DNA of 64,000 nucleotides from Rhizomicrobium sp. (GTDB taxonomy: Bacteria > Pseudomonadota > Alphaproteobacteria > Micropepsales > Micropepsaceae): contig JBBCGJ010000001.1 of the NCBI GenBank assembly GCA_037200985.1, positions 1,712,756 to 1,776,755 of the forward strand, in the 5' to 3' direction. Positions 34,565-47,051 of this stretch are shown in pieces; position 1 is the first letter of the stretch; the number at the start of each line of letters is the position of its first letter. Both the position numbers and the translations under genes were made by a program. Under the pieces are notes generated by a model. The model ran no database searches. It saw only the letters and a program-made list of their open reading frames with translations, and was not told where the DNA came from.

Positions 34565-35698
34565 ATGGCGCCCTTAAGAGTTTTTTACGAACCCTCGGCC
34601 ACACTCGCCGGACGCTCGAATGGCGGGCCTCGGCGGTGGAGTGGGGAGTTGCGTAGCGAACGCGAACTGGCGCTGGCCAAGACGACGCTCGCCCTGATGG
34701 GCGAGTGCGATGTCTCGCCGACGCCCGACAATTACGAATTGTTCTACACCTATGCCGCCGGCGAATCGCCGGCGGTCGGCCGCATCATCGGCGACATGAT
34801 CGCGGCGCGGCATGCCTTCACGCCGTCGCTGCTCAAGGAACTGCGCGAGCGTTGTTTCGCGCGCGACCGCGCCGAACGCGCGGTCGAGGCGATCGGCGAA
34901 ACCGTGACCGTCTCGCTGGACGACGCCATCGCGAAAATGGAATCGGCGGCGAATTTCGCGGGCGAATACGGCAACGCGCTGTCGGCGGCGAGCGGCGAGC
35001 TCGGCGACGACCAGTCGCCGGAAGCCGTCCGCAAGCTGGTCGGGAGCCTGGTCGCCGCGACCAAGTCGATGGAGACGCGCACCCGCTCGCTCGAGCAGGA
35101 ATTGCAGAAATCCTCCCATCAGGTCGGCGATCTGCGCGCGCAGCTCGAAAATGTGCGTCGCGAGAGCCTGACCGATCCCTTGACCGGCATCGCCAACCGC
35201 AAGGCCTTCGACAACGAGCTCGCCACCGCCATCGCGGAGGCGCGGCAGAGCGGCGAGCCGTTGGCGCTCTTCATGTGCGACATCGACCGGTTCAAGCTGT
35301 TCAACGACACCTGGGGCCACCAGACGGGCGATCACGTGCTCAAGCTCGTCGCGGCCTGCATCTCGGAGAACGTCAAGGGCCGCGACACCGCGGCGCGCTT
35401 CGGCGGCGAGGAGTTCGCGGTCATCGTGCGGAAGGCCGACCTCGCCTCGGCCAGGAAGCTTGCCGAGCAGATCCGCTCCAGCGTGCAGAACAAGAAGCTG
35501 GTCAAAAAGTCGACCGGCGACATCCTGGGCTCGATCACCGTTTCCATCGGCGTGGCCGAGCTTTCGAGCGGCGAGGACGGCACGATGCTGATCCAGCGTG
35601 CCGACATGTGCCTCTATCGCGCCAAGCACGCCGGCCGCAATCGTGTGATCGCCCAGGAAATTCCGCGGACCGCCGATCTCGAAATCGACGCTGCTTAG
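34565..35698 (+). CDS. Diguanylate cyclase (GGDEF domain)
   Basis: This protein of up to 377 residues makes cyclic di-GMP. A helical N-terminal region (DNYELFYTYAAGESPAVGR, then a coiled coil around TRSLEQELQKSSHQVGDLRAQLENV) precedes the GGDEF domain, with DPLTGIANRKAFD, CDIDRFKLFNDTWGHQ and the active-site motif FGGEEF. The I-site position reads KGRD instead of RxxD, so product inhibition may be weak. No membrane helix is present. The start is uncertain: the ATG at 34565 has no Shine-Dalgarno, and TTG at 34649 with GGAG upstream is the alternative, removing 28 unconserved residues. Confidence 0.92.
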   Translation: MAPLRVFYEPSATLAGRSNGGPRRWSGELRSERELALAKTTLALMGECDVSPTPDNYELFYTYAAGESPAVGRIIGDMIAARHAFTPSLLKELRERCFARDRAERAVEAIGETVTVSLDDAIAKMESAANFAGEYGNALSAASGELGDDQSPEAVRKLVGSLVAATKSMETRTRSLEQELQKSSHQVGDLRAQLENVRRESLTDPLTGIANRKAFDNELATAIAEARQSGEPLALFMCDIDRFKLFNDTWGHQTGDHVLKLVAACISENVKGRDTAARFGGEEFAVIVRKADLASARKLAEQIRSSVQNKKLVKKSTGDILGSITVSIGVAELSSGEDGTMLIQRADMCLYRAKHAGRNRVIAQEIPRTADLEIDAA

Positions 35699-35803
35699 CC
35701 GAAATTGACGCGGCGTAGCCTTACGCACCGACACCCCCTTCAAGGGGAGTGATATTTCGCGCCGACACCGCTTATGCTTCGCGCGGCAAACAGGGAGAGC
35801 CGC

Positions 35804-36589
35804 ATGCGGACGGAATTCGATCGGGCTTATGTGACGGCGCACGGCAAGGTCGCGGTGCTGACGCTGAACCACCCCGAGGCGATGAACGCCGCCGGCGTCA
35901 AGCTGGTGCGCGGCGCGGCGGCTGCGCTCAGCTTCGTCGAGAGCAAGGAGAACGGTTTCCGCGCCATGATCCTTACCGGCGAAGGCCGTGGCTTCTGCTC
36001 GGGCGCCAACCTCTCGGAGCGCGGCGGCGAGGATACCGGCGTGGGTCATGCGCTGGAGACCGTCTATCATCCCTTCCTGCGCCGGCTGCGCGACCTTTCC
36101 ATTCCCTTCGTCACCGCGGTGAACGGCGCGGCGGCCGGTGTCGGGATGAGCCTCGCGCTGATGGGCGATCTCGTCGTTGCGGCGCGCTCGGCCTATTTCC
36201 TCCAGGCGTTCACGCGCATCGGCCTGGTGCCGGACGGCGGCTCGACCTGGCTGCTGCCGCGGCTCATCGGGCTGGCCCGCGCCAAGGAGCTATCGCTGCT
36301 GGCGGAGCGCCTGCCGGCGGAGAAGGCGCTGGAGTGGGGTCTGATCAATCGTGTTGTCGATGACAACGCGCTGATGGAAGAGGCGCTGCGGCTGGCGGGC
36401 CAGCTCGCGGACGGGCCGTCTTCGCTCGCCATCACGCGCAGCCTGTACTGGCAGAGCCCGCTCAACACTTACGAGGAGCAGCTCGACCTCGAACGCATAA
36501 GCCAGGAACGAGCCGGAAAGACACAAGATTTCGTCGAAGGCGTCTCGGCCTTTCTGCAAAAGCGCCCGGCGAAGTTCCAAGGGAAATAA
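35804..36589 (+). CDS. Enoyl-CoA hydratase/isomerase family protein
   Basis: This 261-residue crotonase-fold protein has ILTGEGRGFCSGANLSE (oxyanion-hole GAN) and VNGAAAGVGMSLALMGDLVVA. FTRIGLVPDGGSTWLLPRLIGLARAKEL carries the family's second-half signature. It may hydrate or isomerise an enoyl-CoA; PaaB/PaaG-like members look similar. The ATG at 35804 (MRTEFDRAYVTAHG) was preferred over an in-frame ATG at 35774. GGGAGA lies upstream. No other fatty-acid or phenylacetate gene is adjacent. Confidence 0.9.
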   Translation: MRTEFDRAYVTAHGKVAVLTLNHPEAMNAAGVKLVRGAAAALSFVESKENGFRAMILTGEGRGFCSGANLSERGGEDTGVGHALETVYHPFLRRLRDLSIPFVTAVNGAAAGVGMSLALMGDLVVAARSAYFLQAFTRIGLVPDGGSTWLLPRLIGLARAKELSLLAERLPAEKALEWGLINRVVDDNALMEEALRLAGQLADGPSSLAITRSLYWQSPLNTYEEQLDLERISQERAGKTQDFVEGVSAFLQKRPAKFQGK

Positions 36590-36722
36590 CCTGCCGCGTC
36601 GATTCCGGCGGTCAACTCGCGCGTCCGTGACTTGCGCGCGGCCGGTCAGTTCTGACCTATTGGTGACGGATTCCTGACAGGCCGGCGCTCCGCCGCGCCT
36701 CCTTCCCTTGGAGACATCGGCG

Positions 36723-38765
36723 ATGCGACGCAGCCTTATCCTATTGGCCGGAGCCTTGAGCGTGAGCTGCGCACTCGCCGCCGACACCGCCGGAAAGCCC
36801 GAACTCGGGGCATGGGGCGTCGACCTCACGGCGATGGATACGACCGTCAAGCCCGGCGACGATTTCTTCGCCTATGCCAACGGTGCCTGGATCAAGAAGA
36901 CCGAGATCCCGCCGGAGCGCAGCGGCATCGGCGCGTTCCAGAACCTGCGCATCCTGAGCGAAACGCGAATGAGGGACATCGTCGCCGAACTGCAGACCAA
37001 GCCCGCGCTGACGACGGAAGAGAAGAAGCTCGTCGATCTCTATGACGCCTTCGTCGACCAGAAGGCCATCGACGCCCAGGGGCTGGCGCCGGCCAAGGCC
37101 GACCTCGACCGCATCGCGGGCGCCAAGACGCTGGACGACGTAGCGCGACTGATGTCGTCGCCCAGGCTGGCCGCTTCCAGCGTGTTCAACATGTATATCG
37201 GCGTCGACGAGAAGGACCCCAAGGCCTATTCGATCGTGCTGAGCCAAGGCGGGCTGGGCATGCCGGACCGCGAATATTATCTGGGCACCGAAGCCGGCGA
37301 AGTCGCGGCACGCGAAGCCTACAAGAAATACCTCACCTCCATCCTGACGCTGGCCGGCTTCACCGACGCCGACAAGCGCGCCCAGGCAATCTACGATGTC
37401 GAGGCGAAGATCGCCCAGCTCCACTGGTCGCGCGCCGACAACCGCAACGAGGACAAGACCTACAATCCGATGCCGGTGTCCGAGCTTAAGAGCTTCGCGC
37501 CGGATTTCCGCTGGGACGCGTTCTTCGCCGAGCCCGGGGTGCCGATGACCGGACCCAAGGGCGAGCGCGTTGTCGTGGTGACGCAGAAGTCGGCCTTCCC
37601 GGGCCTGGCCAAGGTGTTCGCCGAGACCCCGGTTTCGGTGTGGCGCGACTATCTGACGGTGCATTACCTGCACGCCTTCTCGGCCTATCTGCCCAAGGCG
37701 TTCGACGACGTGGATTTCGCCTTCTACGGCACGGTGCTCGGCGGACAGCCGCAGCAGCTCGACCGCGCGACGCGCGGCGTGCACCTGCTCGACAACATCC
37801 TGGGCGACGCGCTGGGCAAGATCTATGTCGCGAAATATTTCCCGCCCATCGCCAAGGAGAAGGCAAAGGAACTCGTCGACAACCTGATGAAGACCTATGA
37901 GGCCGACATCCGCACTCTCACCTGGATGTCGGACGCGACCAAGCAGAAGGCGCTCGACAAGCTGCACAAGTTCACGCCCTATGTCGGCTACACCGACAAA
38001 TGGCTCGATTATTCGACGTACAACATCGTTCCGGGCGCGCTTCTGGCGGACGTGCAGGCGGGCGCCGTCTTCGAATGGAATCGAGAGCTCAAGCGCCTCG
38101 ACGATCCGGTCGACAAGGCCGAATGGGGCATGACCCCGCAAACGGTGAACGCCTATTACGATCCCTCGGCGAACAAGATCGTGTTCCCGGCGGCGATCCT
38201 GCAGCCGCCCTTCTTCGACCCTTACGCCGACGACGCGGTGAATTATGGCGGCATCGGTGCGGTGATCGGCCACGAGATGAGCCACGGCTATGACGACCAG
38301 GGCGCGAAATACGACGGCGACGGCGCCCTGCGCGACTGGTGGACGGCGGAGGACTTCAAGGACTTCAAGGCGCGTACCCAAGCGCTGTCCGACCAGTTCG
38401 ACGCCTATGAAGCGCTGCCGGGCCTGCACGTGATCGGCCCCAACACGCTGGGCGAGGACATCGCCGATCTCGCCGGTATCACCATCGCGCTCAAGGCCTA
38501 TCATCTGTCGCTCGACGGCAAGCCGGCGCCGTTGATCGGCGGCTATACCGGCGATCAGCGCTTCTTCCTGTCCTTCGCTCAGATCTGGCGTTCGAAGACG
38601 CGGGACGCGGCGCTGCGCACGCAGGTGCTGTCGAACGAGCATGCGCCGGCCAAGTTCCGCGCCATCAGCGCGACGCGCAACACCGACGCCTGGTACGACG
38701 CGTTCGGCGCCAAGCCGGGCGATAAGTACTACCTGCCGCCGGACCAGCGGGTTCATCTTTGGTAG
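36723..38765 (+). CDS. M13-family zinc metallopeptidase (neprilysin/PepO-like), copy 1
   Basis: This 680-residue protein starts with a signal peptide (MRRSLILLAGALSVSCALAA). WGVDLTAMDTTVKPGDDFFAYANGAW marks the M13 N-terminal domain. The zinc site HEMSH begins at His517, preceded by FPAAILQPPFFDP, and the third ligand lies in LGEDIADLAG. The C-terminal half ends in YYLPPDQRVHLW. It is exported and probably cleaves short peptides in the periplasm or outside. The ATG at 36723 is preferred over a TTG-initiated frame at 36708. It is the first of three tandem paralogues. Confidence 0.95.
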   Translation: MRRSLILLAGALSVSCALAADTAGKPELGAWGVDLTAMDTTVKPGDDFFAYANGAWIKKTEIPPERSGIGAFQNLRILSETRMRDIVAELQTKPALTTEEKKLVDLYDAFVDQKAIDAQGLAPAKADLDRIAGAKTLDDVARLMSSPRLAASSVFNMYIGVDEKDPKAYSIVLSQGGLGMPDREYYLGTEAGEVAAREAYKKYLTSILTLAGFTDADKRAQAIYDVEAKIAQLHWSRADNRNEDKTYNPMPVSELKSFAPDFRWDAFFAEPGVPMTGPKGERVVVVTQKSAFPGLAKVFAETPVSVWRDYLTVHYLHAFSAYLPKAFDDVDFAFYGTVLGGQPQQLDRATRGVHLLDNILGDALGKIYVAKYFPPIAKEKAKELVDNLMKTYEADIRTLTWMSDATKQKALDKLHKFTPYVGYTDKWLDYSTYNIVPGALLADVQAGAVFEWNRELKRLDDPVDKAEWGMTPQTVNAYYDPSANKIVFPAAILQPPFFDPYADDAVNYGGIGAVIGHEMSHGYDDQGAKYDGDGALRDWWTAEDFKDFKARTQALSDQFDAYEALPGLHVIGPNTLGEDIADLAGITIALKAYHLSLDGKPAPLIGGYTGDQRFFLSFAQIWRSKTRDAALRTQVLSNEHAPAKFRAISATRNTDAWYDAFGAKPGDKYYLPPDQRVHLW

Positions 38766-38775
38766 CCGATATCGT

Positions 38776-38805
38776 GCCGCCGGGCCTCAGCCCGGCGGCA
38801 TTTTT
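38776..38805 (+). terminator. Rho-independent terminator between M13 copies 1 and 2
   Basis: GCCGCCGGGC (38776-38785) and GCCCGGCGGC (38790-38799) form a ten-base perfect stem with loop CTCA, followed by ATTTTT. It implies that copy 2 has its own promoter or receives only read-through. Confidence 0.85.
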
Positions 38806-38828
38806 CTTGATTGGATGAGGACGGTCTC

Positions 38829-40859
38829 ATGAAACGCAGTCTCGTTGTTCTGTGCGCGCTCGCCTTCGCCGGCACGGCCTTTGCCGCCGAGCCGCAGGTC
38901 AAGCCCTGGGGCGTCGATCTTTCCTATATCGACAAGACCGTGAAGCCGGGCGACGACTTTTTCGCCTATGCCAACGGCAACTGGATCAAACACGACACGA
39001 TCCCGGCCGACCGCACCTATTCGGGCGTCAACCTGGAACTCGATCTCAACAATGAGGCGCGGCTGAAGGGCCTCGTCGCCGATCTTTCCAAGACGCCGGA
39101 CGACAAGCTGACGCCCGAAGGGCGCAAGCTGCGCGACCTTTACAACGCCTATATGGACACAAAGCAGATCGAGGCCAACGGCCTTGCGCCCGCGAAGGCC
39201 GATCTCGCGGCGATCGCGCACTACACGTCACTCAAGGAGGTCGCCGGCGCCATCGGCGATCCGCGACTGGGCGTGGACGGACCCTTCGGGTTCTATATCG
39301 GCGTCGACGACAAGAATTCCGACGTCTATTCGATCAACCTCTACCAGTCCGGCCTCGGCATGCCGGACCGCGACTACTACCTGAAGACCGACAAGGAAAT
39401 CCTCGACACACAGGCGGCGTACAAGAAATACCTCGCCGACATGCTGACCATCGCGGGCGCGACGGACGCGGCGGCGCGAGCGCAGAAGGTCTACGAGCTC
39501 GAAGCAGCCCTCGCGCAGGTGAGCTGGCCGGCCGCCGACCGCCGCGACGCGGACAAGATCTACAATCCGATGACGATCGCCGAGCTGAAGGCTCTGGCGC
39601 CGGGCTTCGACTGGGACGCGCTGTTCACGGCGGGCGGCATTCCGGAGAACGGCGGCGCGCGCAAGGTGATCGTGTCGGAGAAATCCGCCTTTCCGAAACT
39701 CGCCGAGGTGTTCGCCGCAACGCCGGTCGCGGTGTGGCGCGACTATCTGACGACGCGCTATCTGCACCGCTGGGCTGCCTATCTGCCGAAGACGGTCGAC
39801 GATACCGATTTCGCGTTCTACGGCACGGCGCTGGCGGGCAAGAGCGCACAGCTCGAGCGGCCGACGCGCGGCATCCGCCTGCTCGACAACGCGATGGGCG
39901 AGGCGCTGGGCAAGCTCTATGTCGAGCGTTATTTCGGCGGCGACGCCAAGTCCAAGGCGCTCGACCTCGTGCACAACCTCATCAAGGCCTATGAGGCGGA
40001 CATCCAGACACTGGCCTGGATGACGCCGGCGACTCGCGCCAAGGCGCTCGAGAAGCTGCACGCCACGGCGCTGAAGATCGGCTACCCCGACAAGTTCCGC
40101 GACTATACCGCGCTCGCGATCGACCGCGGCACGCTGCTCGCCGACGTACAGGCGGCCGGGGTGTTCGAGTGGAACCGCGAGCTCAAGCGGATCGACGATC
40201 CGGTCGACCGCACCGAATGGGGCATGACGCCGCCGACCAACAACGCCTACAACAATCCGAATCTCAACGAGGTGGTGTTCCCGGCCGGCATCCTGCAGCC
40301 GCCCTATTTCGATCCCAATGCCGACGACGCGGTGAACTATGGCGAGATCGGCGCCACGATCGGCCACGAGATCAGCCATTCCTTCGACGACCAGGGCGCC
40401 AAGTACGATGCGCGCGGCGTGCTGGAGAATTGGTTCACGCCCGACGATCTGAAGGCATTCCAGGCGCGGGGCGACGCCATCGCGGCGCAATACGACCTGT
40501 ATGAGCCCCTGCCCGGCCTGCACATCAATGGCCGGCTAACGCTGGGCGAGAACATCGCCGACATCGCGGGACTGGCGATCGCGTTCAAGGCCTATCATAT
40601 CTCGCTCGGCGGCAAGCCGGCGCCGGTGCTCGACGGGCTGACGGGCGACCAGCGCTTCTACATCGCCTATGCGCAGAGCTGGCGCGAGCGGCACCGCGAC
40701 GCGGCGATCCGCAGCCAGGTGCTGTCCAACCCGCACAGCCCGTCGGAATTCCGCGTCAACGGCGTGGTGCGCAACATGGACGGCTGGTACGCCGCGTTCG
40801 ACGTTCAGCCGGGCGACAAGCTCTATCTGCCGCCGGACAAGCGCGTGCCGGTATGGTGA
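38829..40859 (+). CDS. M13-family zinc metallopeptidase, copy 2
   Basis: This 676-residue paralogue has a signal peptide (MKRSLVVLCALAFAGTAFAA) and the same layout as copies 1 and 3. Its zinc site HEISH begins at His513 in ATIGHEISHSFDDQGAKY, preceded by FPAGILQPPYFDP. LGENIADIAG holds the third ligand, and YLPPDKRVPVW ends the protein. WGVDLSYIDKTVKPGDDFF at the mature N-terminus shows close relationship to its neighbours. The ATG at 38829 is preferred to an upstream in-frame codon because the signal peptide then starts correctly. Only 27 bases separate it from copy 3. Confidence 0.95.
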   Translation: MKRSLVVLCALAFAGTAFAAEPQVKPWGVDLSYIDKTVKPGDDFFAYANGNWIKHDTIPADRTYSGVNLELDLNNEARLKGLVADLSKTPDDKLTPEGRKLRDLYNAYMDTKQIEANGLAPAKADLAAIAHYTSLKEVAGAIGDPRLGVDGPFGFYIGVDDKNSDVYSINLYQSGLGMPDRDYYLKTDKEILDTQAAYKKYLADMLTIAGATDAAARAQKVYELEAALAQVSWPAADRRDADKIYNPMTIAELKALAPGFDWDALFTAGGIPENGGARKVIVSEKSAFPKLAEVFAATPVAVWRDYLTTRYLHRWAAYLPKTVDDTDFAFYGTALAGKSAQLERPTRGIRLLDNAMGEALGKLYVERYFGGDAKSKALDLVHNLIKAYEADIQTLAWMTPATRAKALEKLHATALKIGYPDKFRDYTALAIDRGTLLADVQAAGVFEWNRELKRIDDPVDRTEWGMTPPTNNAYNNPNLNEVVFPAGILQPPYFDPNADDAVNYGEIGATIGHEISHSFDDQGAKYDARGVLENWFTPDDLKAFQARGDAIAAQYDLYEPLPGLHINGRLTLGENIADIAGLAIAFKAYHISLGGKPAPVLDGLTGDQRFYIAYAQSWRERHRDAAIRSQVLSNPHSPSEFRVNGVVRNMDGWYAAFDVQPGDKLYLPPDKRVPVW

Positions 40860-40886
40860 GTTCGAATTGGTAACAAGGACATCGTC

Positions 40887-42941
40887 ATGAAGAAGTTGGC
40901 TTTCGCTCTTGCCGGCCTGGCCGGCGTCGCCTGCATCGCTGTCGCCGCGACGCCACCGGCGCAGAAGCCGGAGTTCGGCGCCTGGGGCGTCGACCTCACC
41001 GGCATGGACAAGACCGTGAAGCCGGGCGACGATTTCTTCGACTACGCCAACGGCGCCTGGTTCAAGCGTACCGAAATCCCCGCCGACCGCACCAGCACCG
41101 GCTCGTTCCAGAACCTGCAGATTCTGAGCGAGAACCGCATGAAGGAGCTGATCGCGGGGCTGGAGGCGCGGGACTACGCCACGCTGTCGCCGGAAGAGAA
41201 ACAGATCCGCGATCTCTACGACGCCTTCACCGACACGGCGGATATCGAAAAGCGGGGCCTGGATCCGGTGAAGCCCGATCTGGCGCGCATCGCGGCGCTT
41301 CAAACGCCGGAAGACATCGCCAAGCTGATGGGCGAGCGGGCGTTCCCTTCCTCGTCCGACGGCTACAGCATCGTCGCCGACGGCATCGCGCCGGATGCGA
41401 AGAATTCCAACGTCTATGTCGTGACCGTCGGACAGTCCGGCCTCGGCATGCCGAACCGGGACTATTATCTGAAGGACGACCCGGCGCTGGCCCAGACGCG
41501 CGACGCCTACAAGAAATATCTCGCGACGATGCTGACGCTGGCTGGCGAGACCAAGGACGTCGAGGCGCGCGCCGCCGCCGTCTATGCGCTGGAAAACGGC
41601 ATCGCCACCGCGCAGTGGCCGGCGGCCGACCGGCGCAACGCCGAGAAGGTCTACAACCCGATGACGGTCGCGGACCTGGCGACCTTCGCGCCGGGCTTCG
41701 ACTGGACGGATTTCTTCCAGGTCCAGGGCATCGCGCCGACGCGCAAGGTGATCGTGCGCGAGAACACGGCGTTCCCGGTGCTGGCGCAGACCTTTGCCAA
41801 GACGCCGGTCTCGGTGTGGCGCGACTATCTGACGGTCCACTACCTGCACGCGATGGCGCCATTCCTGCCCAAGGTGATCGACGATGCGGATTTCGACTTC
41901 AACGGCAAGGTGCTGGGCGGACAGACCCAGCAATTGCCGCGCGAAACGCGCGCTGTGCGCCTGATCGACCAGACGCTGCCGCATCCCTTCGGCAAGCTCT
42001 ATGTCGCCAAATATTTCCCGCCGGCGACCAAGGCGAAGGCCGAGACGCTGGTCGCCAACCTGCTCAAGGCCTATGACGCCGACATCCGCAAGATCACGTG
42101 GATGACCGACGTGACCAGGCAGAAGGCGCTGGAGAAGCTGCACGCCTTCACGCCGCATATCGGCTATCCCGACAAGTGGCGCGATTTCTCGGGCCTCATC
42201 GTCAAGCGCGACGACCTGACTGGCGATGTCGCGCGCGCCAACGCGTTCGAGTGGCAGTATCGCCTCGCCCGCATCGACCAGCCGGTCGACCGCAACGAAT
42301 GGAACATGACGCCGCCGACGATCAACGCCTACTACACGCAGCTCTTCAACTCGATCTTCTTCCCGGCGGCGATCCTGCAGCCGCCCTTCTTCGATCCGAA
42401 CGCCGACGACGCGGTGAACTATGGCGGCATCGGGGCGGTGATCGGGCACGAGATCAGCCACGGCTTCGACGACCAGGGCAGCAAATACACCGGCGGCGGC
42501 ATCCTGGAGAGCTGGTGGACCGACGACGACCGCAAGGCGTTCGAGGCCCGCGTCTCCATGCTCGGCTCGCAGTTCGATTCCTATGAGGGTCTGCCGGGCC
42601 TGCACGTCAACGGCAAGCTGACGATGGGCGAGAATATCGGCGACCTGTCGGGCATCACCATCGCGCTGCAGGCCTATCACGCTTCGCTCGGGGCCAAGAA
42701 GGCGCCGGTGCTCGGCGGCTATACCGGCGATCAGCGCTTCTTCCTCGCCTTCGCGCAGGTCTGGCGCGCCAAGTACCGCGACGGACAGATGCGCCAGCAG
42801 ATCCTGTCCAACCCGCACAGCCCACCGCGTTTCCGCGTGATCGGGCCGCTGCGCAATGTGGATGGGTGGTACGCGGCGTTCGGCGTGAAGCCGGGCGACA
42901 AAATGTATCTGGCGCCCGATCAGCGCGTGAAGCTCTGGTAG
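40887..42941 (+). CDS. M13-family zinc metallopeptidase, copy 3
   Basis: This 684-residue paralogue has a signal peptide (MKKLAFALAGLAGVACIAVAAT) and the mature start EFGAWGVDLTGMDKTVKPGDD. Its zinc site HEISH begins at His521 in AVIGHEISHGFDDQGSKY. MGENIGDLSG holds the third ligand, and YLAPDQRVKLW ends the protein. ANAFEWQYRLARIDQPVDRNEW shows divergence in the substrate-facing part compared with the ELKR of copies 1 and 2. It lies 27 bases after copy 2 and is probably cotranscribed with it. It converges with the TfoX-like gene, four bases after its stop. Confidence 0.95.
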   Translation: MKKLAFALAGLAGVACIAVAATPPAQKPEFGAWGVDLTGMDKTVKPGDDFFDYANGAWFKRTEIPADRTSTGSFQNLQILSENRMKELIAGLEARDYATLSPEEKQIRDLYDAFTDTADIEKRGLDPVKPDLARIAALQTPEDIAKLMGERAFPSSSDGYSIVADGIAPDAKNSNVYVVTVGQSGLGMPNRDYYLKDDPALAQTRDAYKKYLATMLTLAGETKDVEARAAAVYALENGIATAQWPAADRRNAEKVYNPMTVADLATFAPGFDWTDFFQVQGIAPTRKVIVRENTAFPVLAQTFAKTPVSVWRDYLTVHYLHAMAPFLPKVIDDADFDFNGKVLGGQTQQLPRETRAVRLIDQTLPHPFGKLYVAKYFPPATKAKAETLVANLLKAYDADIRKITWMTDVTRQKALEKLHAFTPHIGYPDKWRDFSGLIVKRDDLTGDVARANAFEWQYRLARIDQPVDRNEWNMTPPTINAYYTQLFNSIFFPAAILQPPFFDPNADDAVNYGGIGAVIGHEISHGFDDQGSKYTGGGILESWWTDDDRKAFEARVSMLGSQFDSYEGLPGLHVNGKLTMGENIGDLSGITIALQAYHASLGAKKAPVLGGYTGDQRFFLAFAQVWRAKYRDGQMRQQILSNPHSPPRFRVIGPLRNVDGWYAAFGVKPGDKMYLAPDQRVKLW

Positions 42942-42945
42942 TCTT

Positions 42946-43323
42946 TCAGCGCGTCTTGCGCGGGCGCGCGGGCCTGACGGCCTTGCGCGCCCTTTTCTTT
43001 GCCGTCGGCGAAACTTCGGCAACAGCGAGAGCTGCGCGGGCCCATCGTGCGAGTTCGTCCGGATCATCGTAGAGCCGGTCGGGAATGGCGAGCCAGGTCG
43101 TGGTCACCAGTTCCTTGCCCTTCATAAAGGTAAAGGGCTTGCACCCTTCCGCATCGAACGGCTTGCGGCTTTCCGCATCAGTCTTGAAATAGAGCGTGTC
43201 CCGGAAGATCGAGCCGATCATCGTCGCGCCGGCATAGATACCCTCGCCGCCGAAGAACCGGCGCAGCACGATGGGGCCGAATTCGGCGAAGAGATCGTCG
43301 TAGCGGTGCGGGTCGGTCGCCAT
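42946..43323 (-). CDS. TfoX N-terminal-domain protein
   Basis: This 125-residue protein contains the TfoX/Sxy N-terminal fold: LFAEFGPIVLRRFFGGEGIYAGATMIGSI, then DTLYFKTDAESRKPFDAEGCKPFTF. A lysine/arginine-rich tail (KKRARKAVRPARPRK) follows and could bind nucleic acid. The C-terminal TfoX domain is absent. In gammaproteobacteria TfoX controls competence with CRP; in alphaproteobacteria single-domain members have no proven function. It converges with M13 copy 3. Confidence 0.85.
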   Translation of the reverse strand: MATDPHRYDDLFAEFGPIVLRRFFGGEGIYAGATMIGSIFRDTLYFKTDAESRKPFDAEGCKPFTFMKGKELVTTTWLAIPDRLYDDPDELARWARAALAVAEVSPTAKKRARKAVRPARPRKTR

Positions 43324-43873: not shown

Positions 43874-44236
43874 TCAGTACATGTTCAGTTCGAGTTTGGC
43901 TTCTTCGCTCATCCGCTCCGGCGTCCAGGGCGGATCGAAGGTCATGTTCACGGTGACTTCGCCGATGCCTTCGACGCCTTCCAGCGCCGACTTCACCATG
44001 CCCGGCATCTCGCCGGCGACGGGGCAGCCCGGCGCGGTCAGCGTCATGTCCACCGTCGTGTCCTTGTTGTCCGCGACATCAACCTTATAGATAAGCCCGA
44101 GTTCGTAGATGTCCACCGGGATCTCCGGATCGTAGACGGTCTTGAGCGCCGTCACGAGCTTCTCGGTGAAATCGGCCAGTTCCGTCTCGCTGAGCGCGGA
44201 AGAGGCGATATCGGCCTGGTTGGGTTGCGCGTTCAT
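43874..44236 (-). CDS. sufT: SufT / DUF59 (MIP18-like) Fe-S assembly protein
   Basis: This 120-residue protein contains the DUF59 fold: VYDPEIPVDIYELGLIYKVDV, then MTLTAPGCPVAGEMPG with the conserved cysteine, and VTVNMTFDPPWTPERMSEEAKLEL. It assists Fe-S maturation under high demand. The ATG at 44236 (MNAQPNQADIASSA) overlaps the sufU stop by four bases (ATGA), which fixes the start over an upstream in-frame codon at 44302. Confidence 0.93.
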   Translation of the reverse strand: MNAQPNQADIASSALSETELADFTEKLVTALKTVYDPEIPVDIYELGLIYKVDVADNKDTTVDMTLTAPGCPVAGEMPGMVKSALEGVEGIGEVTVNMTFDPPWTPERMSEEAKLELNMY

Positions 44237-44688
44237 TCCGATTTGGCGGCCCCGCCGCCCTCCAGAGCTGATTTCATGGTGTGCCAGGCCAGGGTCGCGC
44301 ATTTGACCCGCATGGGGAAGGCCGACACGCCGGCCATGACGTCGAGCCGCTCGCGATCGTCCTCGTCCAGACCCTCGACCTCTTCGCCCTTCACGAGGTT
44401 GAGGAAGCCGCCCATCAACTTTTCCGCTTCCGCGACGGTGCGTCCGACGATCATGTCCGTCATCAGCGAGGCGCTGGCCTGGGAGATCGCGCAGCCCTTG
44501 CCCTCGAACATGACGTCGGCGATGCGGTCGCTCGCATCGACCAGCAACTGCACCGTGACGCGGTCGCCGCAGAGCGGATTGTGGCCCTGAGCCGTGTTGG
44601 TCGCGCCTTCCAACTTGCCGAAATGGCGCGGATGCTTGGAGTGATCGAGGATCACGTCCTGGTAGAGCTCGCGGAGGGAATCGTCCAT
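44233..44688 (-). CDS. sufU: SufU-type scaffold / sulfur-transfer protein
   Basis: This 151-residue IscU-fold protein has the three conserved cysteines in NPLCGDRV, GKGCAISQASASLM and RVKCATLAWHT. The insertion between the second and third cysteine (about 60 residues) is of the SufU type. SufU shuttles sulfur from SufS, and the partner gene lies three bases upstream. A sufE is not needed if SufU has this role and none is seen here. It overlaps sufT by four bases. Confidence 0.94.
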   Translation of the reverse strand: MDDSLRELYQDVILDHSKHPRHFGKLEGATNTAQGHNPLCGDRVTVQLLVDASDRIADVMFEGKGCAISQASASLMTDMIVGRTVAEAEKLMGGFLNLVKGEEVEGLDEDDRERLDVMAGVSAFPMRVKCATLAWHTMKSALEGGGAAKSE

Positions 44689-44691
44689 GGC

Positions 44692-45936
44692 CTAACTCAA
44701 TATCTTCCGCGCCTTGGCGAGCGCTTCGATGAGCACGTCGACCTCGGAACGGGTGTTGTAGAGCGCAAAACTCGCGCGGGTGGTGGAGGCGACGCCGAAG
44801 CGCTCCATCAGCGGCTGGGCGCAGTGATGGCCGGCGCGCACCGCGACGCCTTCGCGGTCGAGGATGGTGGCGAGGTCGTGGGCATGCATGCCGTCGGCCT
44901 CGAAAGAGAGGATCGATGCCTTGCCCGGCGCGTCGCCGATCACGCGCAGCCAGTTGAACTGGCGCACGCCGTCGCGGGCATAGGTGAGCAGGTCGTGCTC
45001 ATGCGCCTTCACCGCGACGCGATCGAAGGAATTCATGTAGTCGAGCGCGGCGGCGAGACCGACGCTTTCGATGATCGGGGGCGTGCCGGCTTCGAACCGC
45101 GCCGGCGGATCGGCATAGGTGACGATGTCGCGGGTGACCTCGCGGATCATCTCGCCGCCGCCGTTGAACGGGCGCATCTGCTTGAGCAGCGCCCGCTTGC
45201 CGTAAAGCGCGCCGATGCCGGTGGGGCCGTAGAGCTTGTGGCCGGTCAGCACGTAGAAATCGATATCGAGGTCGCGGACATCGACGATCTCGTGCACCGC
45301 ACCCTGGCAGCCATCGGCCAGCACCGGCGCGCCCTTGGCGTGGGCGCGGGCGGCGATCTCCTTCAGCGGCGTCGTGGTGCCCAGCACGTTGGAGATGTGC
45401 GTCACGGCGACGAGCTTGGTCTTCGGACCGATGGCGGCGTCGAGCGCCTCGACATCGAGGCTGCCGTCGTCGCGCACGTCCACCCATTTGAGCACGGCGC
45501 CCTGGCGCTCGCGCAGGAAATGCCAGGGGACGATGTTGGAGTGATGCTCCATCACCGTCAGCACGATCTCGTCGCCCAGCTGGATGCGGGGCGCAAGATA
45601 GGAATAGGCGACAAGGTTGATCGCCTCGGTGCCGCCCTTGGTGAAGACGATCTCGTCTTCGTGGGCCGCGTTCAGGAATTTCTGCACCGTGCGGCGCGCG
45701 GCCTCGTAGGCATCGGTCGCCTTGGCGGAAAGATAGTGCACGCCGCGATGGACGTTGGCGTAGTCGCGGCTCGCGAAATCGCGCATGGCGTCAAGCACTT
45801 GGCGCGGCTTCTGGGCGCTGGCACCGTTGTCGAGATAGACCAGCGGCTTGCCGTAGATGGTTTTCGACAGGATCTCGAAATCGGCGCGGGCAGCGACCGG
45901 ATCGAAGGCGGTGTCGATCTTGCCTTGCGCGGTCAT
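44692..45936 (-). CDS. sufS: Cysteine desulfurase SufS (group II)
   Basis: This 414-residue PLP enzyme takes sulfur from cysteine for cluster assembly. The PLP lysine is in LTGHKLYGPTGIGALYG. The catalytic Cys372 lies in RAGHHCAQPLMERFG, matching the group II motif RxGHHCA. LVYLDNGASAQKP opens the protein. The start ATG at 45936 overlaps the sufD stop, and an open upstream extension in the same frame is noncoding. This is the fully equipped desulfurase of the operon, unlike the NifS-like gene near its front. Confidence 0.96.
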   Translation of the reverse strand: MTAQGKIDTAFDPVAARADFEILSKTIYGKPLVYLDNGASAQKPRQVLDAMRDFASRDYANVHRGVHYLSAKATDAYEAARRTVQKFLNAAHEDEIVFTKGGTEAINLVAYSYLAPRIQLGDEIVLTVMEHHSNIVPWHFLRERQGAVLKWVDVRDDGSLDVEALDAAIGPKTKLVAVTHISNVLGTTTPLKEIAARAHAKGAPVLADGCQGAVHEIVDVRDLDIDFYVLTGHKLYGPTGIGALYGKRALLKQMRPFNGGGEMIREVTRDIVTYADPPARFEAGTPPIIESVGLAAALDYMNSFDRVAVKAHEHDLLTYARDGVRQFNWLRVIGDAPGKASILSFEADGMHAHDLATILDREGVAVRAGHHCAQPLMERFGVASTTRASFALYNTRSEVDVLIEALAKARKILS

Positions 45937-47051
45937 GGCTGCATCGCTCCCGGGAGCGCGTCTTCCACCGCCTGCCAGACCGTCGCGCGGATGGCTTCGT
46001 CGGCGACCTCGTCGACGGCTTCCTCCAGGAAGGCGCGGACCAGCATGTTGCGGGCTTCGGCCTCGGGGATGCCGCGGGCGCGCAGGTAGAACAGCGAATT
46101 GGCGTCGAGATCGCCGACCGCGGCGCCATGGGCGCATTTCACATCGTCGGCGAAGATCTCGAGCTCGGGTTTGAGGTCGGCCTCGGCGCGTTCGCCCATG
46201 AGCAGCGCCTTGGCTGTCTGGCGGGAGTCCGACTTGTCGGCGCCCTGCTCCACCGTGATGCGGCCCTGATAGACCGCGCGGCTCTTGCCGCCGGCGATGT
46301 GCTTGAAGAGCTGGGTGCTCGTCGTCTGGCCGACGGCGTGCGTGATGTGGGTCGTGATGTCGGCATGGGCCGCGCCGCCCAGGACCGAGACGCCGGAAAG
46401 ATGGGCGGCGGAGTTTGCGCCCGCGAGCGCGATCTGGAATTCGGCTCTGGCGAGCTTCGCGCCGCCGTTGAACAGATGCGCCCGGTAAACGCCGTCGCGG
46501 GCCACACGAACGGCGTATTCCTCAACCTGCACCGCATCGACCGCCTGCGGCGCCATGCGGATGTGGGTGAGCTGGGCATTGGCGCCGACGACGAATTCGA
46601 GGCCGAGATTGGAATAGCCGTCGGTATTCTGCGTCTCGCACAGGGTCAGCGCGGCGCCGTCTTCCAGCACGATCAGCGCGCGGACACTGCCGGCCTGCGC
46701 GAAGGCGACGTGCAGCGGCCCGGCCGCCTTGTTGCGCGGGACGCGAACCGCGAAGCCGGTGCGGGCATGAGCGAAGGAGGACGATGCCATGGCGTTCTGC
46801 GGCAGTGTGCCGAGATGGGTCTTGACCCAGTCGGGCGCGGCATCGGCGTTCGCGAGATCGAAGAGTTCGACGCCTTCGGGCAAAGCACCGACTGTCCATG
46901 CCGCAGCGGTATCGTCATTCGCGCCGTCGATCGCGGATTTCAGGTCGGAGTACTTCCAATCCTCGATCCGGCGATGCGGCACACCAAGCGCGGCGAAGCG
47001 GTTCGCGGCTTCGGCGCGGCGTTCGTCCAGCCAATGCGCGGTCACGTTCAT
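45933..47051 (-). CDS. sufD: Fe-S assembly scaffold subunit SufD
   Basis: This 372-residue beta-helical protein forms the SufBC2D complex. GVPHRRIEDWKYSDL near the start and KCAHGAAVGDLDANSLFYLRARGIPEAEARNML near the C-terminus are SufD signatures; the latter contains the conserved histidine used in de novo cluster formation. It overlaps sufS and sufC by four bases on each side (ATGA), so sufC-D-S are tightly coupled. Confidence 0.95.
   Translation of the reverse strand: MNVTAHWLDERRAEAANRFAALGVPHRRIEDWKYSDLKSAIDGANDDTAAAWTVGALPEGVELFDLANADAAPDWVKTHLGTLPQNAMASSSFAHARTGFAVRVPRNKAAGPLHVAFAQAGSVRALIVLEDGAALTLCETQNTDGYSNLGLEFVVGANAQLTHIRMAPQAVDAVQVEEYAVRVARDGVYRAHLFNGGAKLARAEFQIALAGANSAAHLSGVSVLGGAAHADITTHITHAVGQTTSTQLFKHIAGGKSRAVYQGRITVEQGADKSDSRQTAKALLMGERAEADLKPELEIFADDVKCAHGAAVGDLDANSLFYLRARGIPEAEARNMLVRAFLEEAVDEVADEAIRATVWQAVEDALPGAMQP

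Follow-up and report, generated by a model that had tools for sequence, protein, structure and literature searches.

The window, a 64,000-nucleotide stretch of a Rhizomicrobium sp. genome, carries three consecutive M13 metallopeptidase genes. The genes, two short non-coding features associated with the first of them, a hairpin and the conserved neighbours are given below by window position, with the evidence used to define them in brackets where applicable.

34565–35698, + strand: GGDEF protein, conserved upstream neighbour
35774–36589, + strand: enoyl-CoA hydratase family protein, conserved upstream neighbour
36617–36636, + strand: TCGCG-N4-CGTGACTTGCG, putative operator or promoter-upstream element before the leading array gene (exact match)
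36656–36661, + strand: CCTATT, putative -10-like block, weakly conserved, at a fixed distance from the element (column counts)
36723–38765, + strand: copy 1, M13 metallopeptidase, clade A, 680 aa (ORF, Pfam, tree)
38774–38801, + strand: terminator-like hairpin of 12 pairs (10 G-C), with a T-run to 38805
38829–40859, + strand: copy 2, M13 metallopeptidase, clade B, 676 aa, residues mapped to S1'/S2' altered (ORF, Pfam, tree, alignment, model)
40887–42941, + strand: copy 3, M13 metallopeptidase, clade C, 684 aa (ORF, Pfam, tree)
44233–44688, - strand: NifU_N-type Fe-S scaffold of the suf cluster, conserved downstream neighbour
44692–46137, - strand: class-V aminotransferase (SufS-like), conserved downstream neighbour

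The original prediction described three M13 paralogues of 676–684 aa on one strand. Both the ORFs, all intact, and the Pfam domains bore this out: PF05649 (E-value about 1e-114) and PF01431 (about 1e-67) were above cut-off in every copy and matched over nearly the full length. The HExSH and GE(N/D)I(A/G)D motifs were likewise found in all three, as HEMSH/GEDIAD (copy 1), HEISH/GENIAD (copy 2) and HEISH/GENIGD (copy 3); in GEDIAD, Asn is replaced by Asp beside the zinc ligand, with the ligand and the motif's Asp retained. On alignment, the zinc ligands, the catalytic Glu and the other catalytic residues were intact in copies 1, 2 and 3. N542-A543 of the substrate-orienting VNAxx motif was also retained throughout, with the V replaced by N in copy 2 and by I in copy 3. 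All three N-termini are basic-hydrophobic and signal-peptide-like, as judged by eye and with a simple lipobox pattern. Pairwise identity among the copies was 56–58%, and dN/dS against the G028 orthologues (0.158, 0.137 and 0.141 for copies 1, 2 and 3, respectively) indicated purifying selection.

The closest solved sequence was Zmp1 of Mycobacterium tuberculosis (PDB 3zuk, 6xly, 7k1v; phmmer E 4e-161 for copy 1), which has the HExxH and GENxxD motifs in common with the three copies. The predicted structure of copy 2, the one copy modelled (pLDDT 90.9), has the M13 fold. Its nearest fold was again Zmp1 (TM 0.92, 43% identity), from which it differs at the mapped S1'/S2' positions, altered in copy 2. 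PepO of Porphyromonas gingivalis and Tannerella forsythia (9fma, 9kn2, 9eyg) belongs to the same family and fold, with TM 0.92 and 36% identity between copy 2 and 9fma and 9kn2. Neprilysin and ECE-1 share the fold of copy 2 (TM 0.89 and 0.88) and the mechanism residues of all three copies but are eukaryotic and 28–30% identical. By motif and fold, then, copies 1–3 are ordinary M13 enzymes of the neprilysin/PepO/Zmp1 type, and zinc-dependent, phosphoramidon-sensitive peptide cleavage is the predicted family property.

The genome of the window (one contig, 4.64 Mb) holds four M13 genes: copies 1–3 and a distant one that is 42% identical. Across the class Alphaproteobacteria, M13 was present in 18 of 192 genomes. 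The initial view of bacterial M13 genes as usually scattered held in part: 12 of the 15 M13-bearing class genomes outside the genus had a single copy, but all three with more than one had a tandem pair. Alphaproteobacterial tandems include Sphingomonas pairs, conserved between species, and a set of three in a Hyphomonadaceae MAG; because these lie in clades separate from the Rhizomicrobium array, they represent separate duplications.

The age of the array was assessed by phylogeny. Identical rows and rows with alignments under 450 aa were left out of the sequence set, and 179 rows were kept. All array copies formed one clade restricted to Rhizomicrobium (support 100/99), branching next to homologues from the sister genus g168. 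Sub-clades A, B, C and D were each supported at 100/100, and A grouped with its sister A2 at 98/94. Copies 1, 2 and 3 fell into the separate orthologous clades A, B and C, whose members in other species occupy the same site. Constraining the three copies to one clade was rejected (p-AU 2.5e-65), and by identity, tree and AU test they were not closer to each other than to their orthologues in other species. The five g168 genomes examined by locus carried single copies at other sites, outside the genus clade. The deep order of lineages A–E differed between trees, with B early in one (84/45) and G058 and E early in the other. Gene conversion was dismissed, as there was no long identical tract (the longest identical run between copies was 35 bases); synonymous differences between paralogues were 0.44–0.46.

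The local triplication proposed at the outset thus stands as duplication in place, given one clade, one syntenic site and a sister genus with single copies elsewhere. As a recent, strain-level event it was rejected by the tree and the AU test; each copy has orthologues of its own in other species, and array content and gene order vary across species. The identity of 56–58% might indicate separate origins, that is, three genes from different sources brought side by side. No copy was placed in a distant M13 clade, however, and the single genus-restricted clade beside the sister-genus homologues, at one conserved site, makes such independent gains highly improbable. As read from the sequences, the duplications are local in position yet old, within the genus. 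Duplication in place, repeated after the split from the sister genus, gave rise to lineages A to E, whose members were afterwards retained, lost and reordered between species.

We surveyed 50 loci, comprising 29 at the site and 11 off it; left out were two of other M13 lineages, six short loci without upstream DNA, and G023 and G050 (four and two element mismatches), where the upstream flank was not reached. GGDEF and/or enoyl-CoA hydratase genes lay upstream at the 29 leading-gene loci, and suf genes lay downstream in the 14 loci whose DNA stretch reached them. At this fixed site the array read A-B-C, C-D-B, D-B, D-C, A-C, E-E or a single gene; many of the genomes are fragmented MAGs, and some arrays may be cut.

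The element TCGCG-N4-CGTGACTTGCG had a single match in its own genome at ≤1 mismatch. The 11-mer CGTGACTTGCG matched at one further place in that genome, within an unrelated coding frame, and this match was attributed to chance. All 14 exact element matches in 69 genomes of the genus were located directly before an M13 gene. Allowing ≤3 mismatches, the element preceded 25 of 29 leading genes, compared to two of 25 internal genes and none of 11 genes off the site; at the other four site loci (G025, G048, G037 and CRAIB_MAG71) it was missing (4–5 mismatches). The element is therefore tied to the site and not to any particular paralogue, and precedes whichever one leads. Of 22 one-mismatch matches, 13 lay away from M13, approximately the level of the reversed-pattern control, and they were not read as a regulon. 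No sigma-70 promoter pattern was found by pattern scan. To our knowledge, the spacing between the element and CCTATT matches no promoter consensus, and readings of the element as a site for other sigma factors were dropped because the spacing did not match.

An element so specific, and conserved at a single site, could also be the operator of a sensing regulator, with the enzymes cutting particular peptides such as signals, bacteriocins or the antimicrobial peptides of competitors. Leading-slot specificities that are gained, lost and reordered are what changing targets would be expected to produce. Among the neighbours scanned, however, there were no transporter, peptide, immunity or sensor genes, and M13 enzymes are reported to be broad in specificity (PMC4701951), so we regard specific processing or defence as unlikely.

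As originally predicted, a hairpin plus T-run follows copy 1 (38774–38801), and copies 2 and 3 are separated by 27 bases. The hairpin pattern alone proves nothing, because the terminator scan returned six sites in total, fewer than the shuffle mean of 7.4. This hairpin was nevertheless the strongest of them, and the intergenic region holding it folds at -31.3 kcal/mol (z -3.9). With a strict script, a hairpin with T-run was detected before nine of 11 internal B genes versus one of eight internal C genes; as exceptions, G049 has no hairpin before B and G023 has one before C. It precedes B genes regardless of the gene upstream, and the G-C-rich stem with its T-run, a predicted intrinsic terminator, is conserved between species. 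Single folds of individual sequences indicated that the stem sequences differ while pairing persists; as the stems were, by eye, not all in register in the MAFFT alignment, we claim no covariation count. The T-run ends 23 bases before the ATG of copy 2. If termination there were complete, copies 2 and 3 would need a promoter within copy 1 or the hairpin to be expressed at all; alternatively, the hairpin may stabilise the mRNA.

Clade B, the lineage of copy 2, is marked by a signature of eight fixed residues that map to the S1'/S2' region. N at NEP 106 occurred in 10/10 B proteins versus 1/169 others, and T at NEP 580 in 9/9 versus 7/168. Both B proteins held out, from two genomes, carried the full signature, which was absent from all 30 other rows, among which the G032, G058, G045 and G029 rows repeat clade-defining proteins. 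The signature was present even in a B protein whose closest relative in the clade is just 60% identical. An earlier study describes S1' as relatively invariant and interprets Tyr/Ser in place of Phe/Val as making the pocket polar (PMC2259306). The diversification of the copies that had been predicted is supported, most clearly in copy 2.

Dosage is commonly raised by tandem copies that share one promoter. The array could accordingly consist of redundant copies retained to raise total M13 output, their sequence differences reflecting drift, and the conservation of all catalytic residues in copies 1–3 would fit. We nonetheless find this quite improbable: the copies are little more than half identical, their orthologues remain distinct across species, the B pocket signature is fixed even in the 60%-identical protein, and the hairpin would decrease, not increase, expression of copies 2 and 3.

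The reading we favour, and consider reasonably probable, is that a tandem array ancestral to the genus encodes, at a fixed site, exported M13 zinc endopeptidases with complementary specificities and is expressed as a graded operon. One regulated promoter would drive the whole array, and the hairpin would end part of the transcription, so that output is highest for the leading gene and lower for B-C. Sec would export the three enzymes to the periplasm or cell surface, where they would cut short peptides (the family limit is about 40 residues) into importable fragments. Copies 1 and 3 would favour bulky hydrophobic P1' residues, and copy 2, with a more polar pocket, would cut bonds that these miss; through such complementary cleavage, the set would widen the range of peptides degraded. 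Judged from sequence, the most likely role is short-peptide degradation in the periplasm, and the peptide scavenging or processing suggested originally is plausible by analogy with the M13 family. Among the neighbours scanned, no gene pointed towards uptake of peptides. PepS of Shewanella sp. E525-6 is likewise a Gram-negative M13 peptidase with a signal peptide; it prefers hydrophobic P1' residues and was discussed for peptide nutrition. The available part of that report characterises one enzyme and does not report tandem paralogues, compared to three genes here (PMC4701951).

More tentatively, the locus may be a position-anchored expression cassette, in which the element sets the leading slot, paralogues (A, C, D, E and others) swap, and the polar-pocket paralogue B, where it shares an array, sits behind a conserved attenuating hairpin. 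If so, species would adjust the balance of cleavage specificities through gene order, with the promoter unchanged.

Our literature search, covering titles and abstract starts, found no paper on tandem bacterial M13 arrays or Rhizomicrobium peptidases; the conserved leading element, the hairpin conserved before B and the signature of the copy 2 lineage are new here. M13 enzymes have been studied extensively in animals and a few pathogens; some free-living bacteria keep several of the genes side by side. The orthologous sets, fixed site, element, hairpin and sharply defined pocket change provide a small natural series for joint tests of gene order, expression ratio and cleavage specificity, with single-copy relatives as controls.

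Copies 1, 2 and 3, the M13 metallopeptidase genes of the window, form an array that is preceded by a conserved DNA element and contains a terminator-like hairpin.

36617-36636, element TCGCG-N4-CGTGACTTGCG, upstream of copy 1 (sequence match)
36723-38765, + strand, copy 1, M13 peptidase of 680 residues (ORF and both M13 domains)
38774-38805, 12-pair hairpin and T-run, after copy 1 (terminator scan)
38829-40859, + strand, copy 2, M13 peptidase of 676 residues (ORF and both M13 domains)
40887-42941, + strand, copy 3, M13 peptidase of 684 residues (ORF and both M13 domains)

The facts reported in the original prediction held: there are three M13 genes, their motifs are intact, a hairpin follows copy 1, and 27 bases separate copy 2 from copy 3. 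Zinc and catalytic residues are intact in all three (alignment), pairwise identity is 56–58%, and the fourth and last M13 gene of the genome (one contig, 4.64 Mb) is distant from the array and 42% identical. The dN/dS relative to the orthologues in genome G028 was 0.14–0.16 for all three copies alike; between copies it was ~0.47–0.51, with synonymous differences of 0.44–0.46. For copy 2, the AlphaFold2 model (20 sequences; pLDDT 90.9, pTM 0.89) had Zmp1 as its top match in a fold search (TM 0.92), followed by PepO and neprilysin. The enzymes themselves are ordinary M13 peptidases. Judged by eye, the N-termini of all three resemble those of Sec substrates and end in the manner of signal peptidase I sites, although a Cys is retained in the signal region of copies 1 and 3. 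Unlike the window copies, most proteins of E, another paralogue lineage of the genus array, have both a lipobox and a linker rich in proline (L039, L040, L044, L048 and L049), so anchoring varies too within this gene family. Open frames on the - strand opposite the M13 genes (36741-38756, 671 codons; 40536-43067, 843 codons) were dismissed as genes and taken for mirror frames of G+C-rich coding DNA.

In a careful tree of 69 proteins, the array copies and the single genes of the genus formed one clade (support 100/99), and the M13 protein of Rhizomicrobium sp. CRAIB_MAG71 (L075, Micropepsaceae) grouped with the array copies. Clade A contains copy 1, clade B copy 2 and clade C copy 3 (each 100/100); support was 100/100 for clade D and 98/94 for A joined to its sister A2. 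The order in which A to E branched differed between two trees. The array had been attributed to local triplication. The single genus clade and the single site agree with a local origin, but the window copies do not form a group of their own, as a constraint uniting them was rejected (p-AU 2.5e-65). The sister genus g168 has M13 homologues 52–55% identical to copy 1, and those from five of its genomes fell outside the genus clade (SH-aLRT 99). Since the clades inside it are common to several species, the duplications took place after the split from g168 and before those species diverged. Neither the array neighbours (in the fetched stretches) nor the element (at least four mismatches) was found at the g168 homologues of these five genomes.

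GGDEF and enoyl-CoA hydratase genes recur upstream of the array, and suf genes downstream on the opposite strand. At this site, the order A-B-C occurs in five genomes (G000, G028, G022, G046 and G062), C-D-B at two loci, D-B at two, E-E at four, and D-C in G004 and G023, the latter showing the downstream flank only. Other contents are A2-C, X-B and an A-B truncated by the contig end, and single genes resembling A, A2, B, D, E or X also occur. C precedes D in G034 and G054 but follows it in G004 and G023, and B precedes C in one group of arrays but follows it in another. Losses from a single ancestral order are therefore insufficient, and these gene orders would require at least one reordering, or duplication with reciprocal loss. 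G032 has apparently lost its second E gene by deletion, leaving an orphan element (L191 3992-4011) followed by a 23-residue C-terminal M13 remnant (L191 3967-3899), together spanning L191 3899-4011.

The element occurs once in its own genome at up to one mismatch. Exact matches were found once each in 14 of 69 genus genomes, all 14 sitting immediately before an M13 gene, in its orientation and 1.49–1.55 kb ahead of the M13 domain; 9 of 22 one-mismatch matches in these genomes were placed likewise. With up to three mismatches allowed, the element precedes 25 of 29 leading genes at the site, regardless of which paralogue leads, two of 25 internal genes (D in G054, after a 144-base gap, and E in G038, after a 929-base gap) and none of 11 M13 genes located away from the site. 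Chance at this threshold would give 3.2 matches in the 64-kb window on both strands and ~0.01 in each upstream stretch that was searched. Across 28 element sites, column counts showed no variation in GTGA and TTGC, and a C(C/A)TATT-like block, less strongly conserved, lay 20 bases beyond the element. Its TCGCG-N4-CGTGA part is an imperfect dyad. We regard the element as a putative operator or activator site coupled to the array promoter.

A strict script found a stem-loop with a T-run before 9 of 11 internal B genes, following A, D or X, and before just one of eight internal C genes. It found none before B in G049 or G054, yet the G054 stretch folds at -32.5 kcal/mol (z -3.8). In the window, the 23 bases from the T-run end to the copy 2 ATG leave no room for a separate promoter downstream of the T-run. 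Partial termination at the hairpin is the simplest reading, and the array may be an attenuated operon.

M13 genes are present in 50 of the 51 genus genomes with a completeness of 90% or more; three are consecutive in seven genomes and two in eight, counting the G004 pair, which is truncated by a contig end. Across the class, 18 of 192 genomes have M13, with a tandem pair in three of the 15 outside the genus. Of 80 named loci, chosen by similarity and hence no random sample, 21 have arrays: three in the genus group, 17 Sphingomonas pairs and one Hyphomonadaceae triple. Tandem M13 genes are thus not unique to the genus. The Sphingomonas pairs form clades of their own; the pair (L082, L085, L091 and 14 other loci) is conserved across species with its members in separate clades and is an independent, old tandem duplication. 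The triple, from a Hyphomonadaceae MAG (L109 3207-9842), belongs to a clade different from the window's. In the sister genus g171, G271 has seven M13 matches and G273 a tandem pair in another clade. The M13 gene of L097, titled 'Microvirga sp. SRT01', groups among Sphingomonas sequences, and the record name may be wrong.

Clade B differs at positions corresponding to neprilysin pocket residues. For N-terminal positions we assume an offset of 34, taken from the HMMER alignment start and neprilysin numbering and less certain than the C-terminal register. The latter adds 66 to copy 1 numbering, matching N476, H517 and H521 to N542, H583 and H587, as named for neprilysin in PMC2259306. Aligned clade B proteins have Tyr for R102 (9/10), Asn for F106 (10/10), Leu for D107 (10/10), Asn for V541 (10/10), Gly at 557 (10/10, versus Ala in most other M13 rows), Tyr for F563 (7/10), Thr for V580 (9/9) and Ser for V692 (9/9). 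Asn106 occurs in 1 of 169 non-B rows and Thr580 in 7 of 168. Two held-out B proteins, from G062 (79%) and G025 (60% to the nearest B), had all eight signature residues; neither Asn106 nor Thr580 occurred in the 30 other rows of this check, four of which repeat earlier proteins. Changing F563, which belongs to S1', alters cleavage in neprilysin (PMC3285688), and R102, F106, R110 and W693 shape the pockets (PMC4121237). S1' is called relatively invariant and hydrophobic, a Tyr/Ser exchange there being read as making the pocket more open to polar residues (PMC2259306). As its changes fall at mapped pocket positions, copy 2 is predicted to differ in substrate specificity. The evolutionary claims, of an unusual, old array whose order changes, are well supported, and its middle gene may be specialised.
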